A DNA stretch of 64,000 bases from Bacteroidales bacterium. Lineage in GTDB: Bacteria > Bacteroidota > Bacteroidia > Bacteroidales > Bacteroidaceae. The stretch covers positions 62,001-126,000 of the forward strand of contig SUXQ01000002.1 in NCBI GenBank assembly GCA_015060905.1, written 5' to 3'. The first letter of the stretch is position 1, and each line of letters starts with the position of its first letter. Both the position numbers and the translations under genes were made by a program. The notes beneath the pieces were generated by a model, which was not told the origin of the DNA, ran no database searches, and was given only the letters and a program-made list of their open reading frames with translations. Shown here piece after piece: positions 26,670-61,200 of this stretch.

Positions 26670-26677
26670 TATATAAA

Positions 26678-34610: not shown

Positions 34611-34628
34611 TAACATCAAACTAAAAAA

Positions 34629-36878: not shown

Positions 36879-36912
36879 TCCCCTGTCAATAAATATATTT
36901 TAGCACATAATA

Positions 36913-36944
36913 TTTGCTAAAATCGGCTCTAATAAGTAATTTTG
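36913..36944 (+). promoter_or_regulatory. Promoter of the DUF2723 operon
   Basis: TTTG, exactly 20 nt, then TAATTTTG: a full-consensus Bacteroidetes promoter 83 nt before the ATG. A dyad (ATTTTAGC at 36897-36904 with GCTAAAAT at 36916-36923) overlaps the -33 element and could be an operator. Confidence 0.78.
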
Positions 36945-37026
36945 CCGAAATTTCGTGTATTGTGCCAACATATTACCGTTTGACACACAGCCGAAAAACA
37001 TACAGAGAGAATAATAACAACAAAAT

Positions 37027-40377: not shown

Positions 40378-40389
40378 AAACTCAAAGGC

Positions 40390-43684: not shown

Positions 43685-43752
43685 AACAGATAAATTTCCG
43701 CAAAAATAGCTTAGTTTATAATAACTTTAGGAAAAAACTCTCACGATTTTTG

Positions 43753-43760
43753 TACATTTG
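43753..43760 (+). promoter_or_regulatory. Putative -7 element of the GH-D gene
   Basis: TACATTTG, full match to TAnnTTTG, 45 nt before the ATG at 43806. -33 element not clear. Confidence 0.5.
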
Positions 43761-43805
43761 CGCAAAATAACACCGTTTGTTAAATATCAGCAAATACACA
43801 GCCAT

Positions 43806-46229
43806 ATGAAAAAACCGATAATACACCTTTTGCTCATTGTAATTGCCACAATGACAACCATAGCCACAAAAGCCGAAAATTACACAATAACCGAGGGCAA
43901 ATGGACAATAACATACGACGAAACAGTAAAAGGGCTCACCATAGACTACAACGGCAAACGTCTGTTCAACAACGCCTATGCAAGCATACAATATAACAAA
44001 AAAGGCAGTAGCAGCACAACCACCCTCAGGTCAGGCTCTGTAAGCCTTAAACCCACAATAACCACCCACGAAGTAAACGACACACAAGGGACAGGCCGAT
44101 GCTACCAATTTGCATACAACAGAAACGGAGTAACCCTGAAACACCTGTTCACCTTCTACGACAACAAGCCCTATATGATAGTATCGGCAGCACTAGAAGG
44201 CGACGCAGATACAGAAGTAGAGTCACGCCAAATGCTAGCATTGGCAACCTCCAACGAAAGTACCCCTTTCAACGGACAAAATAACCGCGTACTATGGGTA
44301 CCGTTCGACAACGACGGACATATAAAATACAAAAACCGACTACTCGCCGACAACTACGACAAAACCTCACACGAAGTAACAGCCATCTTCGACGGCGACA
44401 GCCGCTACGGCCTCATCGCAGGCTCCATAGACCACGACACATGGAAAAGCGGCATCAGAGTAAAAGGCACCGACGGCAACAAACTAACAGGACTGCAATG
44501 TATTTCGGGCTACACAAGCGATGACACACGCGACAGCCGCAGCCATGGAAAAATCAGTGGCAAAGAAATTTCCTCGGCACGATACTTTGTAGGCATATTC
44601 GACGATTGGCGCGAAGGCCTCGACACATACGCCGCCACCAATGCCCTGATAGCCCCACCCGCCCCGTGGACAAAAGGCAACCCCATAGGCTGGAACTCAT
44701 GGGGAGTGATGCAGACAAAAGTAAACTACAACGGTGTGCTATCTACTGCGCAATTCCTAAAAGACAGCCTGTACAAATATGGTTTCCACGATAAAGAAGG
44801 AAAGACGGTAATAAGCCTCGACTCGTATGCAAAGGATAATATAAAGCCCGAAGACATTCAAAAGCTAGGCACAAAGATATTCTCAAACGGGACATACATA
44901 GAAAATGGAGTAAAACTACCCGGCACCAACCAAACATTAGGCCACTACTATGCACCCTTCCAAATATGGGAGTGGACACGCGACGACAAAGTAGAAGGCA
45001 CCGGAACAGAAGAAATACCCGAATACCTATGGGAAGATGCCGCACTTAAAGTCAATGGCAAAATATACAAAGTATCGAGCAACGGCGGATACGCTACCGA
45101 CCCCACCCACCCTGCCATAAAAGCCAACATAGAATACACACTTAAGCTATGGAACTCGTGGGGCATAAAATATGTAAAAGCCGACTTTCTGAACAGCGGA
45201 ATTATCGAGGGCGACAGTTGGTACAACCCCGAAATAACAACCGGTGTACAAGCATACAACTACGGCATGAAAATATTGCTCGAAACAGCCAAACTCTATG
45301 ACATGTACATAGTAGAATCAATCTCCCCAATATTCCCCTATCAATATGCCCACGGACGCAGAATCTCGTGCGACCGTTTCAGCGAAATTGCCGAGAGCGA
45401 ATATGTGATGAACGCACTATCATACGGCTGGTGGACCGACAAACTATACACCGTAAACGACCCCGACCATCTTGTAATGTGCAAACAAGGCAACAACGCA
45501 AATGAGACATTAGGCGAAAATCGCGCACGCGCAACCACAGGAATGGTAACAGGTGCCTACATATTCGGCGACAACTTCAGCCTTAGAAGCCTTAAGGACG
45601 GCGCAAAACCCGGCTATGCCAGCGAATCGCGCAAACGAGCCATAAAAATAATGGGCAACAAAGACATTAACGAATATGTGCGCAACAATACAGGCTCTTT
45701 CCGACCATTGGAAGGCGACAATCCCTCAGAATCACAACAAGCAGAAAGTTTCTTCATCCGCGACACAGAAAAATATTTCTATCTTGCAATATTCAATTAC
45801 AGCGGCTCCACCGAAAAGCGAGGCACGGTGAGCTTCGAGCGCATGGGCATCGACCCCCAAAATATTGAGAGCATCAAAGAGCTGTGGCTCAACGACAAAG
45901 TGACATACGACAATCAAGAGCTCAGCTACACCATCCCCACAAAAGATGCCCGCGTATACCGCATAACCAAAAGCACAAACACAAGCATCGCCGACACTAA
46001 AGAAGAAACAAACATCTGCATAAAAGCCGAAAGCGACAACGCCATCACCCTAAAAGCCGACAAAGAGATTGGCCTTGTCGCAATATACAGCACAAACGGC
46101 ACACTGCTGTCGAAGAACATATGCAACAACGAAAAAGAGACCACCCTGCCACTCCCCACGAACAACAACATCTATATTATAAAAACAATCTTCGCCGACG
46201 GAAGCAGCAACATAACAAAGTACAAGTAA
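43806..46229 (+). CDS. Secreted clan GH-D glycosidase (alpha-galactosidase-like) with sorting tail
   Basis: 807 aa from the ATG with a signal peptide (MKKPIIHLLLIVIATMTTIATKA). An N-terminal beta-sandwich (30-290) leads to a TIM barrel starting at NPIGWNSWGVMQTK. The proposed nucleophile is Asp460 in KYVKADFLNSG and the acid/base Asp523 in RISCDRFSE, as in GH27/GH36-type enzymes. The last 75 residues (VAIYSTNGTLLSKN, then NIYIIKTIFADGS) look like a type IX sorting domain, linking the enzyme to the por operon. Related to alpha-galactosidases, but the exact GH family and sugar are not certain. Confidence 0.82.
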   Translation: MKKPIIHLLLIVIATMTTIATKAENYTITEGKWTITYDETVKGLTIDYNGKRLFNNAYASIQYNKKGSSSTTTLRSGSVSLKPTITTHEVNDTQGTGRCYQFAYNRNGVTLKHLFTFYDNKPYMIVSAALEGDADTEVESRQMLALATSNESTPFNGQNNRVLWVPFDNDGHIKYKNRLLADNYDKTSHEVTAIFDGDSRYGLIAGSIDHDTWKSGIRVKGTDGNKLTGLQCISGYTSDDTRDSRSHGKISGKEISSARYFVGIFDDWREGLDTYAATNALIAPPAPWTKGNPIGWNSWGVMQTKVNYNGVLSTAQFLKDSLYKYGFHDKEGKTVISLDSYAKDNIKPEDIQKLGTKIFSNGTYIENGVKLPGTNQTLGHYYAPFQIWEWTRDDKVEGTGTEEIPEYLWEDAALKVNGKIYKVSSNGGYATDPTHPAIKANIEYTLKLWNSWGIKYVKADFLNSGIIEGDSWYNPEITTGVQAYNYGMKILLETAKLYDMYIVESISPIFPYQYAHGRRISCDRFSEIAESEYVMNALSYGWWTDKLYTVNDPDHLVMCKQGNNANETLGENRARATTGMVTGAYIFGDNFSLRSLKDGAKPGYASESRKRAIKIMGNKDINEYVRNNTGSFRPLEGDNPSESQQAESFFIRDTEKYFYLAIFNYSGSTEKRGTVSFERMGIDPQNIESIKELWLNDKVTYDNQELSYTIPTKDARVYRITKSTNTSIADTKEETNICIKAESDNAITLKADKEIGLVAIYSTNGTLLSKNICNNEKETTLPLPTNNNIYIIKTIFADGSSNITKYK

Positions 46230-46299
46230 CAAAATGTTACAGCTGTAAAAAGCACAAAATTCATAAAAGTAACCTCAATTTGGCATATTTATCCCATCA

Positions 46300-46333
46300 T
46301 TGAAACATTTTTATCACGAATTTTGTACTTTTG
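46300..46333 (+). promoter_or_regulatory. Putative nadB promoter
   Basis: ATTG, 22 nt, then TACTTTTG (matches TAnnTTTG), 24 nt before the nadB ATG. Spacing is slightly long. Confidence 0.5.
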
Positions 46334-46357
46334 CACAGAAAATTATCCTTGCAGTAT

Positions 46358-47929
46358 ATGGTTAAGAAATTCGATTTTCTTGTTATCGGCTCAGGAATAG
46401 CCGGTATGAGCTTTGCCCTGAAAGTGGCACACAAAGGAAGCGTAGCCCTCGTATGCAAGACTACACTCGAAGATGCAAACACCTATTTTGCACAAGGAGG
46501 CGTGGCCTCTGTTACAAATCTATTAACCGACGACTTCGAAAAACACATTGAGGACACAATGATTGCAGGCGACCGCATAAGCGACCCTGCCACAGTAGAG
46601 AAAGTCGTTCGCGAGGCCCCCGAACAGATAAGGCAGCTTATCGAATGGGGCGTTGAATTCGATAAAAACGAAAAAGGCGAGTTCGACCTTCACCGCGAGG
46701 GAGGCCACTCGGAGCACAGAATATTGCACCACGCAGACAACACCGGTGCCGAGATACAAAAGTCACTGATAAAAGCTGTGCGTAACAACCCCAACATCAC
46801 AGTCCTCGACCACCATTTTGCAATAGAGATTCTCACCCAGCACCATTTGGGAATAAACGTCACACGACAGACCCCCGACATTGAGTGTTACGGAGCATAC
46901 GTGCTTGACCTTAAGACCAACCACGTGGACACCTTCCTGAGCAAAGTGACACTGATGGCAACAGGAGGCTGCGGAGCCGTCTACCAGACAACCACAAACC
47001 CACTCGTCGCCACCGGCGACGGCATTGCAATGGTCTACCGCGCCAAGGGTACGGTGAAAGACATGGAATTTGTACAGTTCCACCCAACGGCACTATACAG
47101 CATAAGCGACCGCCCATCGTTCCTCATCACCGAAGCCATGCGCGGGTACGGAGCAGTACTGCGCACCGCCGACGGCAAGGAATTCATGCACAAATACGAC
47201 CCGCGCCTGTCGTTGGCACCACGCGACATTGTGGCACGCGCCATCGACAATGAGATGAAAAACAGGGGCGAAGATTTTGTCTACCTCGACGTCACACACA
47301 AAGACCCCGAAGAGACAAAAAAGCACTTCCCCTCGATATACGAAAAGTGCCTATCATTGGGCATAGACATAACCAAAGACTATATACCCGTTGCCCCCGC
47401 CGCACACTACCTTTGTGGCGGAATAAAAGTAGACCTTAACGCAGCATCCAGCATACGCCGTCTGTACGCTGTGGGCGAATGTTCGTGCACAGGACTGCAC
47501 GGTGGCAATCGCCTCGCAAGCAATTCGCTTATAGAGGCCGTCGTATATGCCGACGCCGCTGCCAAGCACACCCTTGCCACCATCGACAACTACACATTCA
47601 ACGAAAATATTCCAGAGTGGAACGACGAGGGCACAAAGATGAACGAAGAGCTTGTGCTGATAACGCAAAGCCTGCGCGAAGTAGGACAGCTGATGAGCAC
47701 CTACGTAGGCATCGTACGCACCGACCTGCGCCTGAAACGCGCGTGGGACAGGCTCGACCTGTTGTACGAAGAGACCGAGGAGCTATTCAAACGCAGCGTC
47801 ATCAGCCGAGAGATATGCGAGCTGCGCAACGTCATAAACGTCGGATACCTGATAATGCGTCAGGCAATGGAGCGCAAAGAGAGCCGCGGATTACACTACA
47901 ACCTTGACCATCCGCGCAAAGACTCATAA
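46358..47929 (+). CDS. nadB: L-aspartate oxidase
   Basis: First step of de novo NAD synthesis: oxidises aspartate to iminoaspartate, using fumarate or oxygen. 523 aa from ATG at 46358. FAD-binding GSGIAGMS (11-18), HREGGHSEHRILH, the FVQFHPTALY block, and CTGLHGGNRLASNSL near the C-terminal flavin contact are all present. Length and motifs separate it from the longer fumarate reductase and succinate dehydrogenase subunits. nadA and nadC are not in the window. Confidence 0.95.
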   Translation: MVKKFDFLVIGSGIAGMSFALKVAHKGSVALVCKTTLEDANTYFAQGGVASVTNLLTDDFEKHIEDTMIAGDRISDPATVEKVVREAPEQIRQLIEWGVEFDKNEKGEFDLHREGGHSEHRILHHADNTGAEIQKSLIKAVRNNPNITVLDHHFAIEILTQHHLGINVTRQTPDIECYGAYVLDLKTNHVDTFLSKVTLMATGGCGAVYQTTTNPLVATGDGIAMVYRAKGTVKDMEFVQFHPTALYSISDRPSFLITEAMRGYGAVLRTADGKEFMHKYDPRLSLAPRDIVARAIDNEMKNRGEDFVYLDVTHKDPEETKKHFPSIYEKCLSLGIDITKDYIPVAPAAHYLCGGIKVDLNAASSIRRLYAVGECSCTGLHGGNRLASNSLIEAVVYADAAAKHTLATIDNYTFNENIPEWNDEGTKMNEELVLITQSLREVGQLMSTYVGIVRTDLRLKRAWDRLDLLYEETEELFKRSVISREICELRNVINVGYLIMRQAMERKESRGLHYNLDHPRKDS

Positions 47930-47949
47930 ACAGCAGACAGACAAAAATC

Positions 47950-49611
47950 ATGGAGTGGTTAAACAGCCTATTTTTAGAGCATAGCCCCTTGCAGGCGGTA
48001 ATAATACTGTCAATAATAATAGCGACAGGCCTCGGACTGGGCAAGATACGCATATTCGGAATATCGTTAGGCGTCACATTCGTCTTTTTCGCCGGCATAT
48101 TCGCCGGTCATCTTGGGCTGTCCATCGACAATAAAATGCTCACATACGCCGAGAGCTTAGGCCTTGTGCTATTCGTTTATGAGCTTGGACTGCAGGTAGG
48201 TCCCGGATTTTTCAGTTCCTTTCGCAAGGGTGGACTGCAACTGAACATGCTGGCAATGGGAGTGATAATAATAGGCACAATGATGGCCGTAGCCTTGAGC
48301 TACACGACAAACATCCCCATGAGCGAAATGGTGGGTATACTGTGCGGAGCAACCACGAACACCCCGGCATTGGGAGCAGCACAGCAGACACTTAAAGAGA
48401 TAGGGCTACCATCGACAGGAGCCGCGCTGAGCTGCGCCGTCACCTATCCATTAGGCGTGGTAGGCGTAATATTGGCAATGCTTGCAGTGCGCAAGATATT
48501 TGTTCGCCCCGCAGACATCGACAACGGAGAGCACGACGTTCCCAACCACACATTCATCGCCACATACTGCGTGCAAAATCCCGGCATATTCGACAAGAGC
48601 ATAAAAGAAGTAGCCGAATTTATACACACAAAATTTGTAATTTCGCGTCTGTGGCGCGACAAAAAAGTGAGCATCCCCACATCGGACAAACAGCTGAAAG
48701 AGGGCGACCGTCTGCTTGTGGTGACAACCGAAAAAGATGCCCCCACGCTCACAGCTCTTTTCGGACAGATGGAGGCAAAAGATTGGAACAAAGAGGACAT
48801 CGACTGGAACGCCATAGACAGCCAGCTTGTGTCGCGACACATCGTAATCACCCGCCCCGAGATTAACGGCAAAAGGTTAGGCTCGTTACGTCTGCGCAAC
48901 AGCTACGGGATAAACATCAGCCGCGTTACGCGCAACGGCGTGCGACTGCTTGCAACGCCCAAACTGATACTTCAGATGGGCGACAGGCTCACCGTCGTCG
49001 GCGAGGAAAAAGCCATCGAAAATATCGAAAAACTGCTTGGAAACACCTCGAAGACACTTAACGAGCCCAACCTCGCAGCAATATTCATAGGAATAGTATT
49101 AGGACTTATTTTAGGCTCCATCCCCATTGCCGTACCCGGCATGAGCACCCCTGTCAAATTGGGACTCGCCGGCGGCCCCATAATCGTAGGTATACTTATG
49201 GGTTGCTTCGGCCCCCGTTTCCATCTTGTGACATACACCACCCGCAGCGCCAACCTGATGCTGCGCGGCATCGGCCTGTCACTCTACCTTGCCTGTCTGG
49301 GGCTCGATGCGGGAGCACACTTCTTTGAGACGGTAATGCGCCCCGAAGGAGCCTTGTGGATAGCGTTAGGCTTCATCATCACCTTCGTCCCCGTAGTCAT
49401 TATGGCACTGTTTGCCATGCGTGTCAGCAAGCTCGACTTTGGCAGCGCATGTGGAATGTTGTGCGGCAGCATGGCCAATCCTATGGCGCTTAATTATGCC
49501 AACGACACACTGCCCGGCGACAATCCCGCCGTAAGCTATGCAACAGTCTATCCGCTGGCAATGTTCTGCCGCGTGATTATCGCTCAGGTTATAGTGATGA
49601 TGTTCGTGTGA
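47950..49611 (+). CDS. AspT/YidE-type antiporter (putative aspartate:alanine exchanger)
   Basis: 553 aa. Two membrane halves of the AspT family (duplication domain GLVLFVYELGLQVGPGFF and a C-terminal counterpart GLSLYLACLGLDAGAHFF) flank two RCK_C domains (about 205-365: FVISRLWRDKKVSIPTSDKQ and RLTVVGEEKAIENI). It follows nadB by 20 nt and is probably cotranscribed. Family members exchange amino or dicarboxylic acids; the substrate here is not certain. A 97%-identical copy of its last 244 nt lies at 52786-53029. Confidence 0.88.
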   Translation: MEWLNSLFLEHSPLQAVIILSIIIATGLGLGKIRIFGISLGVTFVFFAGIFAGHLGLSIDNKMLTYAESLGLVLFVYELGLQVGPGFFSSFRKGGLQLNMLAMGVIIIGTMMAVALSYTTNIPMSEMVGILCGATTNTPALGAAQQTLKEIGLPSTGAALSCAVTYPLGVVGVILAMLAVRKIFVRPADIDNGEHDVPNHTFIATYCVQNPGIFDKSIKEVAEFIHTKFVISRLWRDKKVSIPTSDKQLKEGDRLLVVTTEKDAPTLTALFGQMEAKDWNKEDIDWNAIDSQLVSRHIVITRPEINGKRLGSLRLRNSYGINISRVTRNGVRLLATPKLILQMGDRLTVVGEEKAIENIEKLLGNTSKTLNEPNLAAIFIGIVLGLILGSIPIAVPGMSTPVKLGLAGGPIIVGILMGCFGPRFHLVTYTTRSANLMLRGIGLSLYLACLGLDAGAHFFETVMRPEGALWIALGFIITFVPVVIMALFAMRVSKLDFGSACGMLCGSMANPMALNYANDTLPGDNPAVSYATVYPLAMFCRVIIAQVIVMMFV

Positions 49612-49739
49612 TTCCCGCACTACCACATACCGCATTTATTTTGTGTTAATTCTGCAACCACAACTTGTGGAATCGTTACTATCTTCGCACCAAGATTCAT
49701 TGTCCCGCATTTTTACTTGCTTTAATAAACGCTTTTTTG

Positions 49740-50000
49740 TACCTTCGCGGCAATTCCACGCATTGTATATGCCGGAAGGACATATTTTATAGAGCGTTTT
49801 GTTACATATCCAACATTGAAATCTGGACAATTTCAACTACTGAGGATATTAAGCAAGGTGCTCACGTCAGTGTTATATATACACCCACTCGGGTGGACTA
49901 TATACCATTTGGCGTGGGCTATTGTTTGTTACTTAGTAGTGGGCAGTCCAGAGCCTCAATGTTGTAATTAACAATAGTTCCCACGTCTCTTTTTTTTATT
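49740..50000 (+). ncRNA. Structured RNA leader or small RNA before the BspA-like gene
   Basis: A promoter-like CTTG (49716-49719), 20 nt, TACCTTCG (49740-49747) precedes about 245 nt ending in a terminator: GCGTGGG and TATTGTT (49912-49926) pair with AACAATA and CCCACGT (49970-49986), then T8. A second hairpin (CACCC-ACTC-GGGTG at 49882-49895, extended by TATATA strands) lies upstream. CCACGC at 49756-49761 can pair with GCGTGG of the terminator arm, so an alternative fold exists. It matches no RNA family I recognise. The rest of the 49612-50044 gap shows no gene. Confidence 0.5.
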
Positions 50001-50044
50001 CGCACTCATCGGGGAATTGTGAGGGCAAGAAAATAGATAATTCA

Positions 50045-52648
50045 ATGAAAAATTTTTACTTAAAAAAGATGTTACTATCAGTAACCATGCTGCTGTGCAG
50101 TGTAGTTGCGAGTGCCTACGACTTTCAGGTGGATAGTATTTGTTACAATGTAACCTCGGAAACGGATTTAACCGTTGAAGTTACAAGTGGAGAAAATGGT
50201 TATAGTGGCGAGGTTGTGATTCCGGAAACGGTTTCTTATAACGAAAAAACTTATAGTGTTACAAGTATTGGAAAAAGTGCGTTCGGTAGTTGCAGAGGTC
50301 TTACAAGCATTGTGATCCCCAACAGCGTAACAAGCATTGGAGAAGATGCGTTCTATCGTTGCAGCGGCCTTACAAGCATTACAATCCCCAACAGCGTAAC
50401 AAGCATTGGAAAAAATGCGTTCAATGAGTGCTTCCGCCTTAGAAGTGTTACAATCCCAAATAGCGTAACAAGCATTGGAGATGGTGCGTTCTATCGTTGC
50501 AGCGCCCTTATAGGTGTTACAATCGGCAACAGCGTAACAAGCATTGGAAAATATGCGTTTGGTAGTTGCAGCCTACTTACAAGTGTTACAATCCCCAACA
50601 GCGTAACAAGCATAGGGTACAATGCGTTCGGTGGTTGCAGAGGTCTTACAAGCGTTACAATCCCTAACAGCGTAACAAGCATAGGAAGTTATGCGTTCTC
50701 TGGTTGTGCCCTTACAAGCATTACTATCCCTAACAGCGTTACAAGCATTGAAGAAGGTACGTTCTCTGGTTGTGACTTTACAAGTATAACAATACCCAAC
50801 AGCGTTACAAGCATAGGAGATTATGCGTTCTCTGGTTGCAGCGGCCTTACAAGTGTTACAATACCCAATAGTGTAACAAGTATTGGAAAACAGGCGTTCT
50901 ATAATTGTAAAGGCCTTACAAGCATTACAATCGGTAACAGCGTTACAAGTATAGGGGACAATGCGTTCTATTATTGCACCAACCTTATAAAAGTAATTAA
51001 CTTTTCAAACTTGGTATTTGAACCAAGGTCTTCAAATAATGGATATATAGCCTATTATACCTATGAGGTAATTAACGCTCACAATGGTTCAATTGAAGGA
51101 GATTTCATCTTTGGCATAATTGATGGTGTAAATACATTGCAATATTACTTAGGTAATGATACAGAAATAACCTTGCCCAATAATTACAAGGGTGAAAATT
51201 ACGTAATAGGTGATAATGTGTTCAGTTATCGCGCCGGTCTTACAAGCATTACAATCCCCAATAGCGTTACAAGTATAGGGGACAATGCGTTCTCTCTTTG
51301 TTTCGCCCTTACAAGCATTACTATCCCTAACAGTGTGACAAGTATAGGAAATTATGCGTTCGAGGGCTGCACCGGCCTTACAAGCGTTACAATCGGTGAA
51401 AGTGTGACAAGCATAGGAAAATATGCGTTCAATGAGTGCATCCGACTTACAAGTGTTACAATCCCGAGCAGCGTAACAAGCATTGGAGATTATGCGTTCT
51501 CTGGTTGTAGCGGCCTTGCGAGTGTGACAATCCCCAACAGCGTGACAAGCATTGAAGAAGCCGCGTTCGGTGGTTGCACCGGCCTTACAAGTATCATTGT
51601 GGAAGAGGGGAATAGTGTGTACGATTCTCGCGATAATTGCAATGCGATAATAGAAACTGCAAAAAATACAATAATCGCTGGTTGTAAAAAAACTACTATT
51701 CCAAATAGTGTTACAAGTATTGCTGATTATGCATTTTTTGGCAGTAGTATTACCGATATTACAATCCCTAACAGCGTTACAAGTATAGGAATAGGTGCGT
51801 TTTTTGGGTGTGGAAGCCTTGCAAACATTATAGTAGATAAGAACAATAGTGTATACGATTCTCGCAATAATTGCAATGCGATAATAGAAACTGCAACAAA
51901 TAAACTAATAAAAGGTTGCAAAAACACAATCATCCCCAACAGTGTAACAAGCATTGGAGATGGTGCGTTCAATGAGTGCAGCGGCCTCACAAGCATTGTA
52001 ATTCCTAATAATGTTACAAGTATTGGAGTGAGTGCGTTCTCTGGTTGTAGCGGCCTTGCGAGTGTGGCAATCCCCAACAGCGTAACAAGCATAGGAGGTG
52101 GTGCGTTCTATCGTTGCAGCGGCCTTACAAGCATTACTATCTCTAACAGCGTAACAAATATAGAAGAAGGCACCTTCTATGGTTGCAGCGGCCTTACAAG
52201 CGTAACAATCGGCAACAGCGTGACAAGTATAGGAGAATCCGCGTTCAATGGATGTAGCAACATTGTAAGTGTCTATTCATTAAACGAAACACCGGCAAAG
52301 ATTCAATCTTCTTCTTTTTATAGTAAATGCTACACTAATGCCACACTATACGTTCCTCAAGGTTCGCTCGAAGCATATAAAGCAGCCGATGGTTGGAAGA
52401 AATTTGTAAATATCGTGGAATTTGACCCCACAGGCATCGAGGATGTTACAGAGGAGGATGCTCCCGCATTTGAGATTACAGACGGTGGCATTAAGTTCAC
52501 CGATGCCGAGGGCAAGGCTGTTGCTGTTTACACCACCGCCGGTGCGCTTGTAGAGAAAATCGACAGCTACGCCGGCGAGGAGATTACTCTCGACAAGGGC
52601 GTTTATATTGTCCGCGTGGGTAATAAAACCGTAAAGATAGGTTTATAA
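50045..52648 (+). CDS. BspA-like leucine-rich-repeat surface protein with sorting tail
   Basis: 867 aa with a signal peptide ending in SVVASAYD. Residues about 60-770 are some 24 repeats of the 23-residue LRR_5 unit (IPNSVTSIGxxAFxxCxxLTSV), interrupted three times by longer loops (including two similar ones with NNSVYDSRxNCNAIIET). The C-terminal tail (VAVYTTAGALVEKIDS, KGVYIVRVGNKTVKIGL) is a type IX sorting-type domain. BspA-type proteins are associated with adhesion to host or other cells; that role here is inference. DNA repeats are near-identical and codon use is more AT-rich than that of nadB or the antiporter gene. Confidence 0.92.
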   Translation: MKNFYLKKMLLSVTMLLCSVVASAYDFQVDSICYNVTSETDLTVEVTSGENGYSGEVVIPETVSYNEKTYSVTSIGKSAFGSCRGLTSIVIPNSVTSIGEDAFYRCSGLTSITIPNSVTSIGKNAFNECFRLRSVTIPNSVTSIGDGAFYRCSALIGVTIGNSVTSIGKYAFGSCSLLTSVTIPNSVTSIGYNAFGGCRGLTSVTIPNSVTSIGSYAFSGCALTSITIPNSVTSIEEGTFSGCDFTSITIPNSVTSIGDYAFSGCSGLTSVTIPNSVTSIGKQAFYNCKGLTSITIGNSVTSIGDNAFYYCTNLIKVINFSNLVFEPRSSNNGYIAYYTYEVINAHNGSIEGDFIFGIIDGVNTLQYYLGNDTEITLPNNYKGENYVIGDNVFSYRAGLTSITIPNSVTSIGDNAFSLCFALTSITIPNSVTSIGNYAFEGCTGLTSVTIGESVTSIGKYAFNECIRLTSVTIPSSVTSIGDYAFSGCSGLASVTIPNSVTSIEEAAFGGCTGLTSIIVEEGNSVYDSRDNCNAIIETAKNTIIAGCKKTTIPNSVTSIADYAFFGSSITDITIPNSVTSIGIGAFFGCGSLANIIVDKNNSVYDSRNNCNAIIETATNKLIKGCKNTIIPNSVTSIGDGAFNECSGLTSIVIPNNVTSIGVSAFSGCSGLASVAIPNSVTSIGGGAFYRCSGLTSITISNSVTNIEEGTFYGCSGLTSVTIGNSVTSIGESAFNGCSNIVSVYSLNETPAKIQSSSFYSKCYTNATLYVPQGSLEAYKAADGWKKFVNIVEFDPTGIEDVTEEDAPAFEITDGGIKFTDAEGKAVAVYTTAGALVEKIDSYAGEEITLDKGVYIVRVGNKTVKIGL
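50230..52260 (+). repeat. Tandem array of about 69-bp coding repeats
   Basis: Units share the core ATCCCCAACAGCGTAACAAG and variants, repeated about every 69 bp, in frame with the LRR units. Identity is strong at the DNA level, including synonymous sites, which suggests expansion by slippage or unequal recombination. Confidence 0.85.
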
Positions 52649-52664
52649 TAACCACATAGATAAC

Positions 52665-52700
52665 AAATTCCCCCATCGGCAGCTGCCGGTGGGGGAATTT
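52665..52700 (+). terminator. Terminator of the BspA-like gene
   Basis: A near-perfect palindrome (AAATTCCCCCATCGGCAG paired with its inverse, one G-T wobble), 16 nt past the stop, ending in TTT. Confidence 0.8.
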
Positions 52701-52723
52701 CTGTATAAAAGAGAGCCTTAGGT

Positions 52724-53029
52724 TACATGCCCTCGGCATCTTTATAGATGAAGCGACGTATCTTCTTTGTCGCACTCTTTTCAAAAGGCTTCATCATCAC
52801 CTTCGTCCCCGTAGTCATTATGGCACTGCTTGCCATGCGTGTCAGCAAGCTCGACTTTGGCAGCGCATGTGGAATGTTGTGCGGCAGCATGGCCAATCCT
52901 ATGGCTCTTAATTATGCCAACGACACACAGCCCGGCGACAATCCAGCCGTAAGCTATGCAACAGTCTATCCGCCGGCAATGTTCTGCCGCGTGATTATCG
53001 CTCAGATTATAGTGATGATGTTCGTGTAA
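52724..53029. pseudogene. Chimeric scar: acyl-CoA synthetase tail fused to antiporter tail
   Basis: 52724-52790 copies 56241-56307 (last codons of the synthetase, minus orientation) with 2 mismatches in 67. 52786-53029 copies 49368-49611 (last 80 codons of the antiporter, plus orientation) with 7 mismatches in 244 and no gaps. The two overlap by AGGCT, and similar TCATCACC follows in both parents. The open frame across the junction (52748-53029, 93 aa) starts in antisense synthetase sequence, so it is not a real gene. Four of the changes alter amino acids, as expected for a non-functional copy. Confidence 0.9.
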
Positions 53030-53085
53030 AGAAGAAAAGAAACAAAAAAAACGCTTGAGAATATAGCCACTATACATTTTTTCAC

Positions 53086-53093
53086 TACCTTTG
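53086..53093 (+). promoter_or_regulatory. Promoter -7 element of the thi operon
   Basis: TACCTTTG matches TAnnTTTG and lies just before the riboswitch, which places the transcription start at about 53100. Confidence 0.6.
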
Positions 53094-53102
53094 TACAGAA
53101 CT

Positions 53103-53192
53103 CGAATGGTGGTGTCCGGTAACGCCTTTTGGCAACCGTGGCTGAGATTATACACATTGCACCAGTACAGATAATGCTGACGCTGGAAGTTT
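53103..53192 (+). promoter_or_regulatory. TPP riboswitch (THI element)
   Basis: Has the conserved THI-box parts in order: GGTGTCC, then GGCTGAGA (P2/J2-4 core CTGAGA), then ACCAGTACAGATAATGCTGA, which corresponds to the canonical ACCTGATCTGGATAATGCCA, then GACGCTGGAAG. It lies directly upstream of four thiamin genes. It would bind thiamin pyrophosphate and lower expression; the way it does so is not clear, but an 11-bp hairpin follows at the thiD start. Confidence 0.9.
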
Positions 53193-53219
53193 GGAGTCAT
53201 CCTTTAGGTAAATACCGTA

Positions 53220-53258
53220 CCACTATTTTTGAGCAAATTGCAAATATAAAAATAGTGG
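53220..53258 (+). promoter_or_regulatory. Hairpin at the thiD start codon, probable riboswitch expression platform
   Basis: Perfect 11-bp stem (CCACTATTTTT with AAAAATAGTGG, 17-nt loop) whose 3' arm ends 1 nt before the ATG. No T-run follows, so control of translation initiation is more likely than transcription termination. Confidence 0.6.
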
Positions 53259-53259
53259 C

Positions 53260-54099
53260 ATGAATACAAAAAAATCCTATCCAATCGTCTTATCAATCGC
53301 CGGCTCCGACTCTTCGGGTGGAGCAGGAATACAAGCCGACCTAAAAACATTTTCTGCGCTTGGCGTATACGGAGCAACTGCAATAACAGCCGTTACCGCA
53401 CAAAATACACAAGGCGTACATTCACAGTTAGCAATAACCCCACAAATGGTTTTTGACCAAATTGTGGCAGTAATTGACGACCTGCACCCATCATTTGTCA
53501 AGATAGGGATGCTGTCGAATGCAGAAATAGTTGCAACAGTGGCAGAAGCACTTGTCCGACAGCCCCTTTCTATCATTCTCGACCCTGTAATTGTATCAAG
53601 CAGCGGTCATCGTCTGCTGTCAGTCGAAGCACAAGACATTTTAAAGGAAAAACTGCTTCCAATTTCGATGCTCGTCACCCCCAACATTCCGGAGATGACG
53701 GCCCTTACAAATATGCCACTTTCCACATACGAGGAAAAGAAAAATGCAGCATCGTATCTTATGGACTACGGCGTCAAGGCTATTCTTCTTAAAGGCGGGC
53801 ACGAAGAGGGCAACATAAAAAAAGACATTCTTTTCTCACAGTCAGAGTGCGGAATAAAATCCACAACATTCTCATCCGAAACAATTTACACTCGCAACAC
53901 CCACGGAACAGGCTGCACACTCTCCTCGGCCATTGCAGCATTTATGGCACGAGGCTGTCGCATGGAAGAGGCTGTTGCCGAAGCAAAAAAATACATTACA
54001 GAGGCCATTCGCGCCGGAGCGAATATAGAAACAGGACACGGGATAGGCCCTGTTAATCACGCTTTTAACCCCCAAAAAATGTTTCTCAATGATTTCTGA
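53260..54099 (+). CDS. thiD: Hydroxymethylpyrimidine (phosphate) kinase ThiD
   Basis: Phosphorylates HMP and HMP-P to HMP-PP, the pyrimidine half of thiamin. 279 aa: SIAGSDSSGGAGIQADLKTF at the N-terminus, the anion-hole and ATP region HGTGCTLSSAIAAFMARG near residue 210, and LDPVIVSSSGHRLL. Normal length. First gene after the TPP riboswitch; overlaps thiE by 11 nt. Confidence 0.95.
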   Translation: MNTKKSYPIVLSIAGSDSSGGAGIQADLKTFSALGVYGATAITAVTAQNTQGVHSQLAITPQMVFDQIVAVIDDLHPSFVKIGMLSNAEIVATVAEALVRQPLSIILDPVIVSSSGHRLLSVEAQDILKEKLLPISMLVTPNIPEMTALTNMPLSTYEEKKNAASYLMDYGVKAILLKGGHEEGNIKKDILFSQSECGIKSTTFSSETIYTRNTHGTGCTLSSAIAAFMARGCRMEEAVAEAKKYITEAIRAGANIETGHGIGPVNHAFNPQKMFLNDF

Positions 54100-54736
54100 C
54101 AATTACAAATTACAATTTATAACGCATTATAATAAAGAGTATTCCTATATAGATTCGGCACGCATTGCATTAGAAGGAGGCTGCCGATGGATACAGCTCC
54201 GCATGAAAAATGCCGAAGAGTCTTTATTAGAGGGAACAGCCCTTGTGGTGCAGAAAATGTGCCGAGAGTATGGCGCAACATTTATCATCAACGATAATGT
54301 TGCTCTAACAAAAAAGATACACGCAGATGGCGTACATCTTGGAAAGAACGACACGCCAATAGCCGAGGCACGAAGAGTGCTTGGAGAGCAATATATTATA
54401 GGATGTACGGTAAATTCGTTTGAAGACATTTTATTCAATATAAAGAATGCTGTACCCGATTATTTTGGTTGCGGCCCGTTCCGCTTTACGACAACAAAAG
54501 AAAATCTTGCCCCCATAATAGGCTACGAGGGCTACCGCAGCATTACCCACAAGATGCAAAATAACAACATCAAAATTCCGCTTGTCGCCATCGGAGGAAT
54601 ATGCAAGAATGACGTTTCGGAATTATTAGAGTGTGGCGTTGGGGGCATTGCATTGAGCGGCAGCATTCTTAACGCAGACGACCCTATAAGGGAAATGAAA
54701 GAGGTTACAAATAAAATATCAGCATTCAACAAATAA
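54089..54736 (+). CDS. thiE: Thiamin phosphate synthase ThiE
   Basis: Joins HMP-PP and the thiazole phosphate to thiamin phosphate. 215 aa TIM barrel: GGCRWIQLRMKN, FIINDNVALTKKIHADGVHLGKND, the pyrophosphate loop YFGCGPFRFTTTKEN, and VAIGGI followed by GGIALSGSIL. Overlaps the thiD end, so probably translationally coupled. The second ThiE-like gene downstream lacks several of these residues. Confidence 0.93.
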   Translation: MISDNYKLQFITHYNKEYSYIDSARIALEGGCRWIQLRMKNAEESLLEGTALVVQKMCREYGATFIINDNVALTKKIHADGVHLGKNDTPIAEARRVLGEQYIIGCTVNSFEDILFNIKNAVPDYFGCGPFRFTTTKENLAPIIGYEGYRSITHKMQNNNIKIPLVAIGGICKNDVSELLECGVGGIALSGSILNADDPIREMKEVTNKISAFNK

Positions 54737-54760
54737 CAACAAATTTCAAAATTAAGAATT

Positions 54761-55531
54761 ATGATTGAAAGAAAAGTCTCTCAAGGAATTATCAGTTCCT
54801 ATTTTAACAAATTGGAAAGAAATTTAAACTTAGACGTAGCTATTGTCGGAGGAGGCCCATCGGGAATTGTCGCAGCCTATTATCTTGCAAAAGCCGGATT
54901 GAAAGTTGCGCAATTTGACAGAAAATTATCGCCCGGAGGAGGCATGTGGGGTGGAGCTATGATGTTCAACCAGATTGTCGTTCAAGAGGAGGCCCTGCAT
55001 ATTATCAAGGAGTTTGAGATAAACTATGAACAGTACAACGAGAATCTCTATGTGATGGATTCTGTGGAGAGTACTTCGGCATTATTATATAAAGCTGTTC
55101 ACGCAGGTGCAACTATATTCAACTGTTATTCTGTCGAGGATGTTATTTTCAAGAATAATGTTGTCAGCGGCGTTGTTGTCAATTGGACTCCTGTATTAAG
55201 AGAGGGCATGCACGTGGACCCGCTGAATATTATGGCAAAATGCGTGATTGACGGAACAGGGCACGATAGTGAAATGTGTCGAACGGTAGCCCGCAAAAAT
55301 GGCATACGTTTAGCCACCGACACAGGCGATGTTATTGGCGAGCGTTCATTGGATGTTGTTTCGGGCGAGCAGGAGGTTGTAAATGGAACAAAGGAAATTT
55401 ACCCGGGACTTTATGTTTGCGGAATGGCAGCTTCGGCGGTGAGCGGCACGCCTCGAATGGGACCTATATTCGGCGGAATGCTTCTGTCGGGCAAAAAAGT
55501 TGCCGGCCTTATAATTGATGCGTTGAAATAA
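54761..55531 (+). CDS. thi4: Thi4-type thiazole synthase, predicted sulfide-dependent
   Basis: Makes the adenylated thiazole half of thiamin from NAD and glycine. 256 aa: dinucleotide-binding GGGPSGIVAAYYLAKAG (30-46), LSPGGGMWGGAMMFNQIVVQ, and SGTPRMGPIFGGMLLSG near the C-terminus. The residue that is the sulfur-donating Cys in yeast Thi4 is His151 here (GMHVDPLNI), the state found in archaeal Thi4 proteins that use free sulfide catalytically with iron. ThiG/ThiH/ThiS are not seen here. 24 nt after thiE and TAATG-overlapped with the next gene. Confidence 0.9.
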   Translation: MIERKVSQGIISSYFNKLERNLNLDVAIVGGGPSGIVAAYYLAKAGLKVAQFDRKLSPGGGMWGGAMMFNQIVVQEEALHIIKEFEINYEQYNENLYVMDSVESTSALLYKAVHAGATIFNCYSVEDVIFKNNVVSGVVVNWTPVLREGMHVDPLNIMAKCVIDGTGHDSEMCRTVARKNGIRLATDTGDVIGERSLDVVSGEQEVVNGTKEIYPGLYVCGMAASAVSGTPRMGPIFGGMLLSGKKVAGLIIDALK

Positions 55532-56106
55532 TGAGATTCATTGCAATAACAACGCCGAAGGTGGTAGTTGAAGATGTTTATTTAATTCAACGTTTACTTG
55601 ATGGCGGCATTGATATTATACATCTCAGGAAGCCCGAGGCTGATATTCGTGAATGTAGAAAATTGCTGAAAAAATTAACAAAAGGGGAAAGAGCAAAAAT
55701 TGTCATTCATGATTTTCCCGAATTATATGATGAATTTTCTCTGAAAGGGATTCACGTAAACAAAAATGTCACAAGCCTGCCAAATGATTATACAGGCATC
55801 AGGACACGCTCTTGTCACTCTTTCGAGGAGGTTGAAAGGCATAAGAGCGAATATGATTATCTGTTTCTGAGCCCTATTTTCAACAGCATTTCCAAAGCCG
55901 GGTACGAGGCTGCGTTCAGCAGAGAGGAGCTAATTAAGGCCTCGAAAGATTGTATCATTGACGATAAAGTGATAGCCTTGGGCGGAGTGACATTCGACAA
56001 GATTCCTTACTTGAAAATGCTGAATTTTGGCGGGGTTGCAATGATTGGAGGAATTTATAATATTAATGCCTTGAATTGTTTGAAAGAGATTGATTCGTAC
56101 AGATAA
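55531..56106 (+). CDS. Second ThiE/TenI-like protein
   Basis: 191 aa, shorter than ThiE, same barrel: MRFIAITTPK, IDIIHLRKPEA, KIVIHDFPELYDEFSLKGIHVN, YLFLSPIFNSISKAGYEA and VIALGGVTFDKI. The pyrophosphate loop differs from that of ThiE (SPIFNSISK in place of GPFRFTTTK), which fits the TenI-like group that acts on thiazole tautomers in other organisms. Its substrate may be the Thi4 product; this is inference. Last gene of the operon, with a terminator 30 nt on. Confidence 0.82.
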   Translation: MRFIAITTPKVVVEDVYLIQRLLDGGIDIIHLRKPEADIRECRKLLKKLTKGERAKIVIHDFPELYDEFSLKGIHVNKNVTSLPNDYTGIRTRSCHSFEEVERHKSEYDYLFLSPIFNSISKAGYEAAFSREELIKASKDCIIDDKVIALGGVTFDKIPYLKMLNFGGVAMIGGIYNINALNCLKEIDSYR

Positions 56107-56135
56107 TTATTAATATCATCTTTCGGAATAAAATA

Positions 56136-56165
56136 TCCCCAAAGGTTTTTCACAGCCTTTGGGGA
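56136..56165 (+). terminator. Terminator of the thi operon
   Basis: 10-bp stem (TCCCCAAAGG with CCTTTGGGGA, 10-nt loop) followed by AATTTTTAATTG. 74 nt before the end of the convergent synthetase gene. Confidence 0.82.
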
Positions 56166-56239
56166 AATTTTTAATTGTATTTTCAGAGGGTTAAAAGCCG
56201 TTTAAATTTATGTCCTTGAAATTTAACAGTTTCTTAATT

Positions 56240-57895
56240 TTACATGCCCTCGGCATCTTTATATATGAAGCGACGTATCTTCTTTGTCGCAGTCTTTTCA
56301 AAAGGCTCCTTCATCACCTCTACCGAGCCGACCTTAGAGCTTTTATTAACGTTCTTATTTACAATCTTAAGGATGCGCTGTTTGTAACCCTCGAGCTTCT
56401 TGAAGAACTCCTCCTCGCCCTGCTGGTCCCAATCGATGACATTATCGTTGAATGTCACAAGTGCAACAAGTTTGCCTCCACGCTGCATCACGATAGATTC
56501 GTTTACCTCTTCAATGTCGTTGATAACCTTTTCAATCTCCTCGGGGTAGATATTCTCGCCCGATGCACCGAGAATCATATTGTTCAGACGACCCTTAATG
56601 TAATATTTTCCCTTTGCATCCTGACAGGCAAGGTCGTTGGTGCGGAACCAACCATCCTCGGTAAATGCGTTTCTTGTGCGCTCGGGGTCTTTATAATATC
56701 CGAGCATCACATTAGGACCTTTGGCTATAATCTCACCCTCTCCTGTCTCGGGATTAACATTGTACAGTTTAAGCTCTACATTCTTCACAGGAATACCTAT
56801 TGAGCCTGCCACACGCGCCCTTTTCACCGAGAAACTGAGCAACGGCGCAGTCTCGGTCAGTCCGTAACCTATGGCATAGGGGAAATCGGCTTTCAGCAGG
56901 AATGCCTCAATATCCGGGTCGAGCTTCGCGCCACCAATGCCGAAGAAAGTAACCTTTCCACCGAAAGTCTTCTTCAGTTTCATTCCAATGACCTTACACA
57001 TTAGCCCGTACATATTCTTGTTCATCCACGTGAGCAGAGGGCTCTTTTTAATTGTGGGCAGAATGCTGTTCTTATAGATTTTCTCGATGATAAGCGGCAC
57101 TGCGAGTATTGTGGTGGGACGCACCTCTTGCATCGCCTTGAGAAGAAGTGAGGGCACAGGAGGCTTTGACATATAGTAGACGCTTGCACCCACATACATG
57201 GGGTAGAGCATACCTATCGTCATCTCAAATGTGTGAGGCATGGGCAATATCGACAGCCATCTATCCTTTTCGCCACGACGACAAGCATCGTAGCACGAGT
57301 GTACGCACGAAATGAGGTTCCTGTGGCTGAGCACCACTCCCTTCGCATTTCCTGTTGTACCCGAAGTGTAGTTTATGGTCGCAATATCATCGGGCATTGG
57401 TTGCGACACTTTCCCGTCACATGTAAATTTACTGTCGTCTCTCTTAATCTCGTCGAAAGTTTCAATATCAATGACAAGAGTCATTTTGTCCATGCACTCT
57501 TTGCTGACATTGGGCAACAGTCGCTTGGAGACGAAAAGTACCTTGCTCTCGGAGTGATTAAGGATGTTTGTAATCTCATTCTCGGAACATTCGGGAAGAA
57601 TGGGGATAGAAATTCGACCAAAGGGCACGGTGCTGAAAAAAGCAACCGTCCAATTGGGCATATTCTGTGAAAGGATAGCCACTTTGTCGCCTGCCCCAAT
57701 GCCAAATTGCGTGAGACGCTTGGAAAGAGTATCGCACTTTTTCTTAAGCTCTTCGTAGGTGTAACCACCCTCGCCGTCCACAACTTTCGAAAGAGTATTC
57801 TTTGCAAAAAAAGTGGTGGCATATTCGTAAAGCTTACCTAATGTATCTACATAATTCTCGCGTACTGATTTTATTCTTCTATACAGATATTTCAT
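56240..57895 (-). CDS. Long-chain acyl-CoA synthetase (AMP-binding)
   Basis: Activates fatty acids via acyl-AMP to acyl-CoA. 551 aa: P-loop-like INYTSGTTGNAKGVVLSHRN, GYGLTETAPLLSFS, the hinge WFRTNDLACQDAKGKYYIKGR, and a C-terminal lysine-rich KTATKKIRRF with the catalytic Lys. Monocistronic, on the minus strand. Its 3' 67 nt are also found 3.5 kb away in the chimeric scar. Substrate chain length not certain. Confidence 0.9.
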   Translation of the reverse strand: MKYLYRRIKSVRENYVDTLGKLYEYATTFFAKNTLSKVVDGEGGYTYEELKKKCDTLSKRLTQFGIGAGDKVAILSQNMPNWTVAFFSTVPFGRISIPILPECSENEITNILNHSESKVLFVSKRLLPNVSKECMDKMTLVIDIETFDEIKRDDSKFTCDGKVSQPMPDDIATINYTSGTTGNAKGVVLSHRNLISCVHSCYDACRRGEKDRWLSILPMPHTFEMTIGMLYPMYVGASVYYMSKPPVPSLLLKAMQEVRPTTILAVPLIIEKIYKNSILPTIKKSPLLTWMNKNMYGLMCKVIGMKLKKTFGGKVTFFGIGGAKLDPDIEAFLLKADFPYAIGYGLTETAPLLSFSVKRARVAGSIGIPVKNVELKLYNVNPETGEGEIIAKGPNVMLGYYKDPERTRNAFTEDGWFRTNDLACQDAKGKYYIKGRLNNMILGASGENIYPEEIEKVINDIEEVNESIVMQRGGKLVALVTFNDNVIDWDQQGEEEFFKKLEGYKQRILKIVNKNVNKSSKVGSVEVMKEPFEKTATKKIRRFIYKDAEGM

Positions 57896-57936
57896 TGTAT
57901 TTATAATTTAGTCCCATACGGGGAATTTGCTTTTTA

Positions 57937-57944
57937 CAAAGATA
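57937..57944 (-). promoter_or_regulatory. Putative -7 element of the acyl-CoA synthetase gene
   Basis: The minus strand reads TATCTTTG (matches TAnnTTTG), 41 nt before the ATG. No clear -33. Confidence 0.5.
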
Positions 57945-58019
57945 CTACAGTTTGAGAAATAATATCCGTTTATAAGCTCTTTTTTATCATCATTTATCCA
58001 ATTAAAAGAGTCTATTTAC

Positions 58020-58152
58020 ATAAAAAAACCTAAAGTTATATTTTTTCGCCACAAAAAATGAACAGACAGCACCACTGCATCAATTCCACCCATGCTATAC
58101 GCCACAAGAATATATAATTATATAAATATATAAAAATATAAAAATATAAAAA
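58020..58152. other. AT-rich intergenic stretch, nothing else seen
   Basis: Between the divergent synthetase and M60-like gene promoters. It contains a run of TATAAA-type short repeats (58110-58152) but no gene, hairpin or RNA signature I recognise. Confidence 0.6.
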
Positions 58153-58155
58153 GCG

Positions 58156-58186
58156 TTGCATATTTCACGCAAAATCAAGATATTTG
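58156..58186 (+). promoter_or_regulatory. Promoter of M60-like gene 1
   Basis: TTG, 20 nt, GATATTTG. Almost the same sequence with the same spacing precedes the second M60-like gene, so the element is conserved by duplication and probably in use. Confidence 0.6.
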
Positions 58187-58235
58187 CATAATAAATACCT
58201 CTTAAATTAAAATTCATAAAAAAAATTCCATACAC

Positions 58236-61200
58236 ATGAAAAGAAACTACTCCTCACTTTTTTTCAAAATGCTGTTACCCATCGTACTATTCTTCTGCAG
58301 CGCAGGAAACGCATGGGCAGCAACCGAAGTACATGTGGAAACAGCAGGAACACTATCGACCCTGCTAACCTCCACCGAAACTACACTTAAAATCACAGGC
58401 TCCATAAACGGAACAGACGTTAAATATCTGCGCGAGCTTGTAAAAGACGGAAAAGTAACAGCCATCGACCTCTCCGAGGCAAGCATCGTTAGCGGCGGCG
58501 AAAAATACGATGGAAAAAACTCAACCGAAGATGACGTAATCGGCGCAGAAATGTTCAAAGAGTACACCAATTTGAAAGCCATTGAACTACCCGCCAACCT
58601 TACAGAAATTAAGTCAAACGCATTTGCAAAGAGCGGATTGCGAAAGATTAACATACCCGACGGCGTGTCACGCATTGGCAACGACGCATTTGCTTACATT
58701 GGCACACTCGACACAGTAGTCCTTGGCCGTCGCGTGTCAAGCCTAGGCCAGGGAGTATTTTACCAATCTTCGGTAAAGATGGCCTATGTAAAACCCACAA
58801 CACCTCCGGCAGTACCGGCCTATCTGTTCGGCAGCCCTAAAATATGTGTATACACCAACGCTGTTGAAGACTACAAAGCCAGCGATTGGGGGAGATGGTG
58901 GACTATCGTCGGAGGATTAGAAGAAATCTATCCACAGCCCATAGACCACACTGATGTCGTAAACAAGCTCTGTGGTAACTACTTCGAAGATGCAGCATGT
59001 ACACAGCTCAAGGCCGAATACCTTGCAATGAGCGACGAAAATCTTACAAAAGCATTCACCGAGGGAGGAATGCCACAATTCATGGTAGACATTGCCCTAA
59101 AGATAAAGAATAACAACTGGGCACCCTACGAAAAAGACTTCCGCATACACAGTTACAAGCCCTATAGCGACGCAAACTACTGGAACGAAAAAATGAAGAG
59201 TAGCGGCGGCTCTTACATGGGTAACCCCACAGGTATTTACGCCGGTAGCATTGAGTCGCTTTACATATTTGTAGAGAACGACATCCCCGAGGATGCAACC
59301 CTTTACATAGCACCATGTACAGACAGAGAACTTATCAGCAATGCAACCAGCGGTAAATGCCTGAAAAAAGGATTGAACATAATCGACGGCATAAAGGATG
59401 CACTATATTACATTCTCTACACAGCCGACACAAAATCAATGACAAAAACCCTCGACGAGTGGCCCGAGATTAAAATACACATTCAGGGTGGTAAAGTAAA
59501 CGGATATTACGACGTTGCACGCGCAAGCGACAAAGAGTACGTAGAGCTACTCAACGCCGCCAGCCACAAGTACTTCACCATCAAGAGTAAACACGCACTT
59601 TTCAATTTCGAAACCACAGCCTACAAAGAAATATGGCCCAGAACCATCGACCGCAGCATCCAGTGGTTCGACAGCCTCACAGTATGGCAGCAATCGCTGA
59701 TGGGCTACCGCGCCGAGGTTGCAAACGGCCAGCGCAACTACGCCCCCTTCTACCTCACAGGCGGCGAAGCTATTGCCCCCATCTACTACAACAACCCCAA
59801 TTTCGCAATTCAAGGCGACGAAAATGACGGCGGTTACGCAAACTCAAGCGCCTACCGTACATGCTACAACTCAGTAAACTGTATCAGAAACTCATTCGAC
59901 GTAAGCCTTAAAGACATGGACGAATGGTGCGCAGGTCACGAATGTGGACACAACAACCAAGCAACCATCAACCTCGAAGGCGGTGCCGAAGTATCGAACA
60001 ACTTCTTCTCGAACACTTGTCAATACCTCTTTGGAAGAAAAGTATCAGGCGGCGACCCCCTTCTGACACAAGTTACAGACTTTTTGGACAACAAGCCCTT
60101 CCCTCTTCGTGGCGGCGGTTTCCGCATGTACTACCAGCTTTTCCTCTACTATCACCAGGCACAGAGGAACACCTCTTTCCTTCCCAATCTATTCAAAGAA
60201 TTGCGCAAAGATCCTTTGAAAATCTATACTCCCGGCTCAAGCAATGGAAACAACAGTACACTTAAATTTGTGCGCAAAGCATGCGAAGTAGCACAGGAAG
60301 ACCTTACAGACTTCTTTAAAGTATGGGGATTCTTTGAACCTATGACAAACTACCACATCGAACTCTATGGTTCATACACAATAACCATAAGCAAGACCAA
60401 CATAAACAGAACACTTAATGAAATTGCAAAATACCCCAGAAAGAATCGCGAAATATTGTTTGTAGAGGACCGAGTAGACCACGTACTTACAAACGGCCTC
60501 TTCTCCGAGCCCGGACAAAAGCGTCTCCAATCTGAAAAAATAGGACAGTATGGCGACCTTGGACAGTTTACAGATTATTTGCCCGACTCTATTAAACCCT
60601 CAAGCTACAGCTACATACAGTCCGACTCGCTCTACAATATGTCAGGTAGCGGAGGCGTAGGATTCCTGATGCTCGACAAAGACAGCAACCTCGTCTACGC
60701 AGCAAACACCTTGAGTTTCTCTGTACCCGGCAGCGTCGGCACAGACTTTACCATTTACTCGGTAGACGCCGATGGCACATTGCGCGAAACATACAAAGCT
60801 GGTGACGGAACAGAATATGTAACCCTTACAGAGGCAGGAACATTGGCCGACTCACTTTCGGCAACAGCCATTAAAGCAGTCATCAGCGGTCCCATCAACA
60901 GCACCGACATTAAATATTTGCGCGAGCTTATCAATAATGGCAGCCTGCAGTCGTTAGACCTCTCGAACGTCACCGTAAAAAGTGGCGGTAAGGCATACTA
61001 CGGAACTTACAAAACCCCGGCAAACGCCATAGGTGCTTATTCATTCTACGAATGTAACAACCTTAACACCATCATACTGCCCAATAATATTACCTATATA
61101 TATACAAATGCCTTTGCATATTCGGGACTCACAGGAATAGTTATTCCCGAAAGCGTTAAAACAGTAGCAGCCAGCGCATTTGTACGTTGCGGCAGCCTGG

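Follow-up and report, generated by a model that had tools for sequence, protein, structure and literature searches.

The 307-bp scar described here (52723-53029) lies in a 64,000-nt stretch of a Bacteroidales bacterium, referred to as the window (contig C14, positions 62001-126000; source genome of 2.54 Mb, 87.5% complete, 31 contigs), and is built from the tail ends of both neighbouring genes. It is most likely a dead recombination joint, the fossil of a recent duplication-type rearrangement, and not a working element. Both parents of the scar are intact. The left parent encodes an AspT/YidE-type antiporter (47950..49611, plus strand; NCBIfam NF003007, Pfam Asp-Al_Ex, alignment). The right parent, acs, encodes an AMP-binding acyl-CoA synthetase (56240..57895, minus strand; Pfam AMP-binding, E 1.9e-77). 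The order of the locus is: nadB-like gene, antiporter gene, BspA-like gene, scar, thiamin pyrophosphate (TPP) riboswitch with thiamin operon, acs (minus strand), gene encoding an M60-peptidase with leucine-rich repeats (LRR). The gene preceding the antiporter gene is presumably nadB-like.

The first part of the scar (52723..52790, minus strand) is a copy of the acs tail that starts exactly at the acs stop codon; it is identical to 56240-56307 at 66/68 positions (two mismatches, gapless). The second part (52786..53029, plus strand) is a decayed copy of the antiporter tail (49368-49611, plus strand) that ends at the stop codon. Base-by-base alignment gives 237/244 identical positions, i.e. seven mismatches and no gap, stop codon counted in: this codon is TGA in the intact gene and TAA in the scar. 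The two parts are joined at AGGCT, exact in both parents, within a stretch (52786..52802, no strand assigned) where the parents agree at 15/17 positions. The two tail copies and their AGGCT joint had been proposed in the original prediction and are confirmed by these alignments. A repeat search of 46000-60000 recovered the same pairs: 49368-49609 with 52786-53027 (98%, gapless) and 52723-52802 with 56240-56319 (95% of 80), the latter extending past the joint. When both parts were searched against the source genome (E = 3e-115 and 4.6e-30), the scar and its two parents were the only matches; chance similarity is thus excluded.

The joint has the topology of a tandem duplication: the right end of a unit is joined to its left end, in the same orientation, and short homology (AGGCT within the 15/17 match) is found where the ends meet. 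Microhomology of at least five bases has a probability of 0.0046 at a random joint (formula assuming equal base frequencies). None of 899,811 sampled pairs of 17-mers from the antiporter gene and acs reached 15/17, the pair at the joint itself being outside the sample. No other pair of joined gene tails, as judged by coordinates only, was found in the self-comparison of the 195-kb own contig (at least 85% identity, at least 50 bases). In a plasmid collection, three records matched, all to the antiporter part only.

The antiporter part shows decay. Six coding differences from the intact gene (6/241 sites) lead to four amino-acid changes, including L521Q and L536P; Q521 and P536 are found in none of 105 distinct homologues. 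All five near relatives have V, A, L, P, L and I at residues 488, 513, 521, 526, 536 and 547, respectively. At residue 547 (base 49588), the scar encodes I with the base found in all five, and the intact gene has changed to V; the scar therefore retains the older state at this position. The direction of change is less clear at base 49488 (T in the scar and G066, G in the gene and G002, A in the three others); at residue 488, both scar and gene differ from the near relatives. The two changes of the acs part, at 52747 (G) and 52775 (C), are specific to the scar among the seven sequences compared. A 93-aa frame (52748-53029) is open in the scar. A functional gene was considered and rejected, as this frame holds the two leucine replacements found in no homologue.

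The 6/241 differences between scar and gene can be set against the divergence from G066, the closest relative examined, at fourfold sites: 111/250 differ in the antiporter gene and 108/224 in acs. The scar is therefore probably younger than the split from G066, and on these sequence comparisons the joining event would postdate it.

The scar separates two arms. Arm 1 (49612..52722, plus strand; LRR_5, copies of leader and gene elsewhere in the source genome) is almost entirely taken up by a leader RNA, a BspA-like LRR gene (50045-52648, plus strand; LRR_5) and a hairpin behind the gene. Arm 2 (53030..56239, plus strand) carries the TPP riboswitch and the thiD-thiE-thi4-thiE2 operon, identified by family profiles and found at other places in G002, G021 and G028. 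The arms share no homology: blastn gave no match between 49612-52722 and 53030-56239, even with words of 7 bases as well as 11. The joint is therefore classed as duplication-type and not as a plain duplication. The original prediction of a head-to-tail duplication by microhomology stands for the topology and the microhomology; the simple copying of one interval is not supported, and the arm-to-arm comparison that it proposed showed no residual similarity. Since the arms are unlike and the scar is only about 3% diverged, the arms either already differed at joining or have been reshaped since.

The scar is homologous to its parents only as far as the acs stop on one side and the antiporter stop on the other, with no shared stub beyond either. 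Flank stubs of the scar compared with the native ones (six lengths and sides) gave a smallest p of 0.18. Stubs of three lengths (40-133 bases), taken beside the scar, beside the native genes and from five relatives, gave a lowest p of 0.052 in 66 comparisons, none below 0.05 (500 base shuffles per comparison; the G066 antiporter flank started two bases early, within the stop codon). A small duplication of a near-empty interval followed by two later insertions was rejected as the main model, no stub being shared.

The arrangement was sought in other genomes of the genus, a set in which same-species strains are not included. Both orthologues (at least 63% identity for the antiporter, at least 68% for acs) were found in 11 of the 36 other genomes searched with both proteins, always on different contigs of these fragmented assemblies; in the four closest of the 11, lists of open reading frames show genes other than acs after the antiporter gene. 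G066, the twelfth genome, was found by DNA search: the two genes are 49 kb apart on one 118.6-kb contig, with both tails in the order and orientation of the scar. An antiporter gene facing acs, the arrangement that had been predicted for close relatives, was found in none of these 12 genomes. Nor was an acs relative (at least 45%) or a second antiporter tail found within up to 10 kb of the antiporter gene at any of 90 loci (at least five of them included again under a second name, and many truncated at the end of a contig); the sole acs match fell in a 91st locus, included because it contains the G066 acs. No DNA match spans the joint in 43 other genus genomes, of which 23 gave no match at all at that sensitivity. 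As far as tested, the facing pair is private to this genome.

The reading tentatively preferred, at somewhat less than an even chance, is a transient tandem duplication that carried both cargoes, followed by the loss of one cargo from each arm. The duplication would have arisen in this lineage, probably after the split from G066, by joining within the acs tail and the antiporter tail at the 5-base microhomology inside the 15/17 match. The BspA cassette and the thiamin operon would both have been part of the duplicated stretch. Loss of redundant copies, one cargo from each arm, would then have followed, so that every gene is left once and the joint persists as a drifting fragment without function. 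In its favour stand the topology, identity and microhomology of the joint, the scar-only changes with the older base retained at 49588, the low divergence of the scar compared with G066, the lack of a match spanning the joint in other genus genomes, the change of side of acs relative to block A, and a second tandem doubling nearby. Several observations weigh against this. The copies of a duplicated unit should be homologous, and the arms are dissimilar. A plain duplication does not predict homology that ends at both stop codons: both losses must end exactly there, which is the weak point. No relative was found with both cargoes, and the three loci with thiamin operons (L070-L072) have no match to arm 1. 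Gene conversion could give an older scar a young look. The rearrangement of the surrounding gene order, described below, is also ambiguous, as G066 carries blocks D and E in inverted form and another type of rearrangement is possible.

The stop-codon ends are better accounted for by the joining of two alleles, one from a lineage with antiporter-BspA-acs and one from a lineage with antiporter-thiamin operon-acs, the second allele being added behind the first. Homologous recombination would act at one end and microhomology at the other (homology-facilitated illegitimate recombination, HFIR, or a merodiploid formed by DNA uptake). The difference between the arms would then be explained in one step. 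Arms running from stop to stop are what alleles of separate lineages should show, since homology between this genome and G066 likewise ends at these stop codons. Comparable events are described (PMC3240628, PMC5361080, PMC3784515). However, none of the 12 other genus genomes holding both genes has a single-cargo arrangement, no evidence of a donor was found, and two lineages in which the antiporter gene and acs were already adjacent are required. Allele joining, rather unlikely in itself, is the main rival, and duplication followed by loss is preferred over it only tentatively.

A deletion joint is improbable. It is possible insofar as the G066 tails stand in the order of the scar: if the acs-to-antiporter region were amplified, loss of about 49 kb through microhomology from one of the copies would give the joint, and flanking full copies would give the intact genes. 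The position of acs to the left of block A in G002 also fits. The model nevertheless calls for a 50-kb region present at least three times and for several further losses, and the arms would likewise begin identical. A chimera of assembly or strains, in which the joint links two strains and is real in no cell, is very unlikely. The source genome is incomplete and probably a metagenome-assembled genome (MAG), like its nearest named relatives: the five that are nearest when ranked by antiporter are all MAGs, with the label Bacteroidaceae or Bacteroidales, and four come from the gut of water buffalo or roe deer. However, the window has no N, an assembler requires reads across the joint, and changes such as L521Q and L536P would be unexpected in the working antiporter of a second strain. 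Least probable is templated filler, in which break repair between already adjacent BspA and thiamin units used first the acs tail and then the antiporter tail as template: the two templates are no more than 3.6 kb away and the BspA unit directly precedes the thiamin unit once the scar is removed, but the exact start and end at stop codons would be a coincidence.

Signs of mobile-element insertion were absent. The only inverted pair reaching 30 nt within 46000-60000 is 39 nt long (72%) and links the nadB-like gene to acs. No tRNA was found across the window as a target. Among the matches listed for nine scanned proteins, there is no transposase or integrase family beside the cargo. PADLOC gave zero matches for three proteins.

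Six blocks of the window and its contig are collinear with G066: A (18988-36877), B (36889-49606, up to the antiporter stop), C (56240-61228, from the acs stop onwards), D (65225-82265, containing a gap), E (90873-95110) and F (95159-96675). Their order in G066, in window orientation, is C, -E, A, a 5.8-kb insert, B, -D, F. The insert (G066:C8 30905-36675) has no counterpart at 36877-36889 of the window. Gene acs is thus to the left of A and B in G066 and to the right here, with unchanged orientation; it is to the left of the start of A in G002 and directly to the right of the end of A in G012. A change of side without inversion is an expected product of duplication and loss, though this argument from order is soft. 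The suggestion that the locus gains and swaps genes is weakened by the same comparison: order is broken at several places in the region, and the antiporter-acs interval is one of them. There is only a slim chance that this interval is a recurrent site of duplication and loss at which acs repeatedly switches sides of block A through merodiploid states; if so, the scar would be a rare datable fossil of an intermediate that held two cargo alleles together.

Other local doublings were observed. The M60-peptidase/LRR gene (58236-61637) is followed by a tandem relative that runs from 61802 to past the window end (65149); both M60-type copies match one stretch of G066, a second tandem doubling nearby. 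Past the window end, the own contig has a nearly tandem direct repeat of 2.5 kb at 86% (113902-116395 and 116650-119171, numbered from the window).

The joint of a microhomology-mediated tandem duplication is the general mechanism with which the scar was compared. The order and orientation of the tails and the short identity at the joint are alike; the flanking arms, unlike those of such a duplication, are not copies of each other. Three described processes resemble the steps proposed here. HFIR is described for effector-immunity arrays in Vibrio cholerae (PMC5361080) and for conjugation in E. coli (PMC3240628): non-homologous cargo is added beside conserved flanks and old parts remain, whereas here neither a donor allele nor a single-cargo relative is known. 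Transformation merodiploids of Streptococcus pneumoniae are tandem duplications with two different alleles; unlike the present joint, theirs consists of repeated copies of IS861, and about 100-900 kb are duplicated (PMC3784515). The SNAP hypothesis proposes duplication followed by the loss of redundant copies (PMC7055797). The duplication remnant, the genes retained once and the changed order are shared with it, but the preferred reading here involves a small unit, and any selection for the duplication is hypothetical. As to the order changes without inversion that SNAP would give, acs keeps its orientation and lies on the left side of A in G066 and G002 but on the right side in G012 and in this genome, with inversions of D and E in G066. 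The proposed steps are covered by these processes: the scar is a new example, not a new mechanism.

In arm 2, the riboswitch and the operon together extend over 53098-56106. The TPP riboswitch (53098-53205, plus strand; Rfam, 40.8 bits, E 8.6e-6) scores below the Rfam gathering cut-off of 54.3, so a default scan overlooks it. The products of the operon are, by family profiles, HMP-P kinase, ThiE, Thi4 and a ThiE/TenI-like protein. A terminator-like hairpin follows (56136-56165, plus strand). Arm 2 matches the thiamin operons of G002, G021 and G028 from 53086/53095 to 56062/56075 at about 74-75% DNA identity; these operons are on contigs other than those with the antiporter gene and acs. Thi4 (E up to 1e-30) is found in 4/41 genus genomes, this one counted. 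It was not found in G066, where, as in G012, gene absence is uncertain (84% and 82% complete, respectively).

Arm 1 belongs to a family of units that is dispersed in the source genome. The leader of this arm (leader region: 49736-50047) has nine further matches at eight places in the source genome (73-88% identity), and three own-genome copies of leader and gene start to match at 49635-49640, 24-29 bases past the antiporter stop. The structured core is at 49792..50026 (plus strand; coordinates set by eye, from the fold z-score, pair counts in 13 sequences and RNAalifold); the leader folds at -96.5 kcal/mol (z -6.64). Fourteen copies were chosen by a 3′ motif, whose conservation is thus partly due to the choice; a duplicate of the window's own copy was dropped. 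The 13 aligned copies are the one of the window, eight from elsewhere in this genome and four from other genomes (the copies outside the window are L212-L219, L227, L228, L235 and L245).

A structure with a kissing-loop pseudoknot, including P1 (49792-49800/49855-49863) and the kissing loops (49823-49828/49946-49951), was drawn by hand from the same sequences, which favours it over slid versions: 86.7% of its cells are paired, whereas shuffles reach 81.4% and slid versions do not exceed 53.1%. Two-sided pair changes number 18, against 10.6 in shuffles; by the measure of further pair types, the structure does not surpass the shuffles (45 and 44.3, respectively). The kissing loops have other, mostly complementary letters in 3/13 copies (L217, L219 and L235) and are unpaired in L213. 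RNAalifold prefers an alternative fold, in which strand 1 (49861-49868) pairs with strand 2 (49911-49924), and strand 3 (49972-49987, followed by a U-run) with strand 4 (50011-50026). Pairing of strand 2 with strand 3 gives a terminator-like helix ahead of the U-run. Alignment columns 146, 205 and 299, one each in strands 1-3, co-vary in the same three copies. On this structural modelling, the leader looks like an attenuator with two exclusive folds, terminator and anti-terminator.

By DNA search, the leader is present in 24/44 genus genomes, this one counted, and in 3/294 other genomes drawn from the order (few candidates per genome scored). The gene behind it is not always BspA-like: by eye, the frames behind L227 and L235 look different. 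At L216 (G000:C19), two very similar frames (1778-2320 and 5698-6240), sigma-factor-like by eye, both precede sequence that matches the BspA unit, perhaps another local tandem duplication. Rfam gave no gathering-level match in the window; within 49600-53300, no match with E up to 5 overlaps the leader. Literature searches found no paper combining a leader RNA with BspA, and none combining structured RNA in Bacteroidales, attenuation and leucine-rich repeats. The copies look like a dispersed family of structured, attenuator-like leaders without Rfam match, predicted to precede BspA-like and some other genes.

Bacterial gene order changes fast, and the intermediate steps are rarely observed. The value of the scar is that of a case study: it is young, some of its differences can be attributed to either the scar or the gene, and it illustrates how a rearranged locus can result from a duplication-type event. 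The leader RNA family could be a new class of regulatory RNA, and may matter more.

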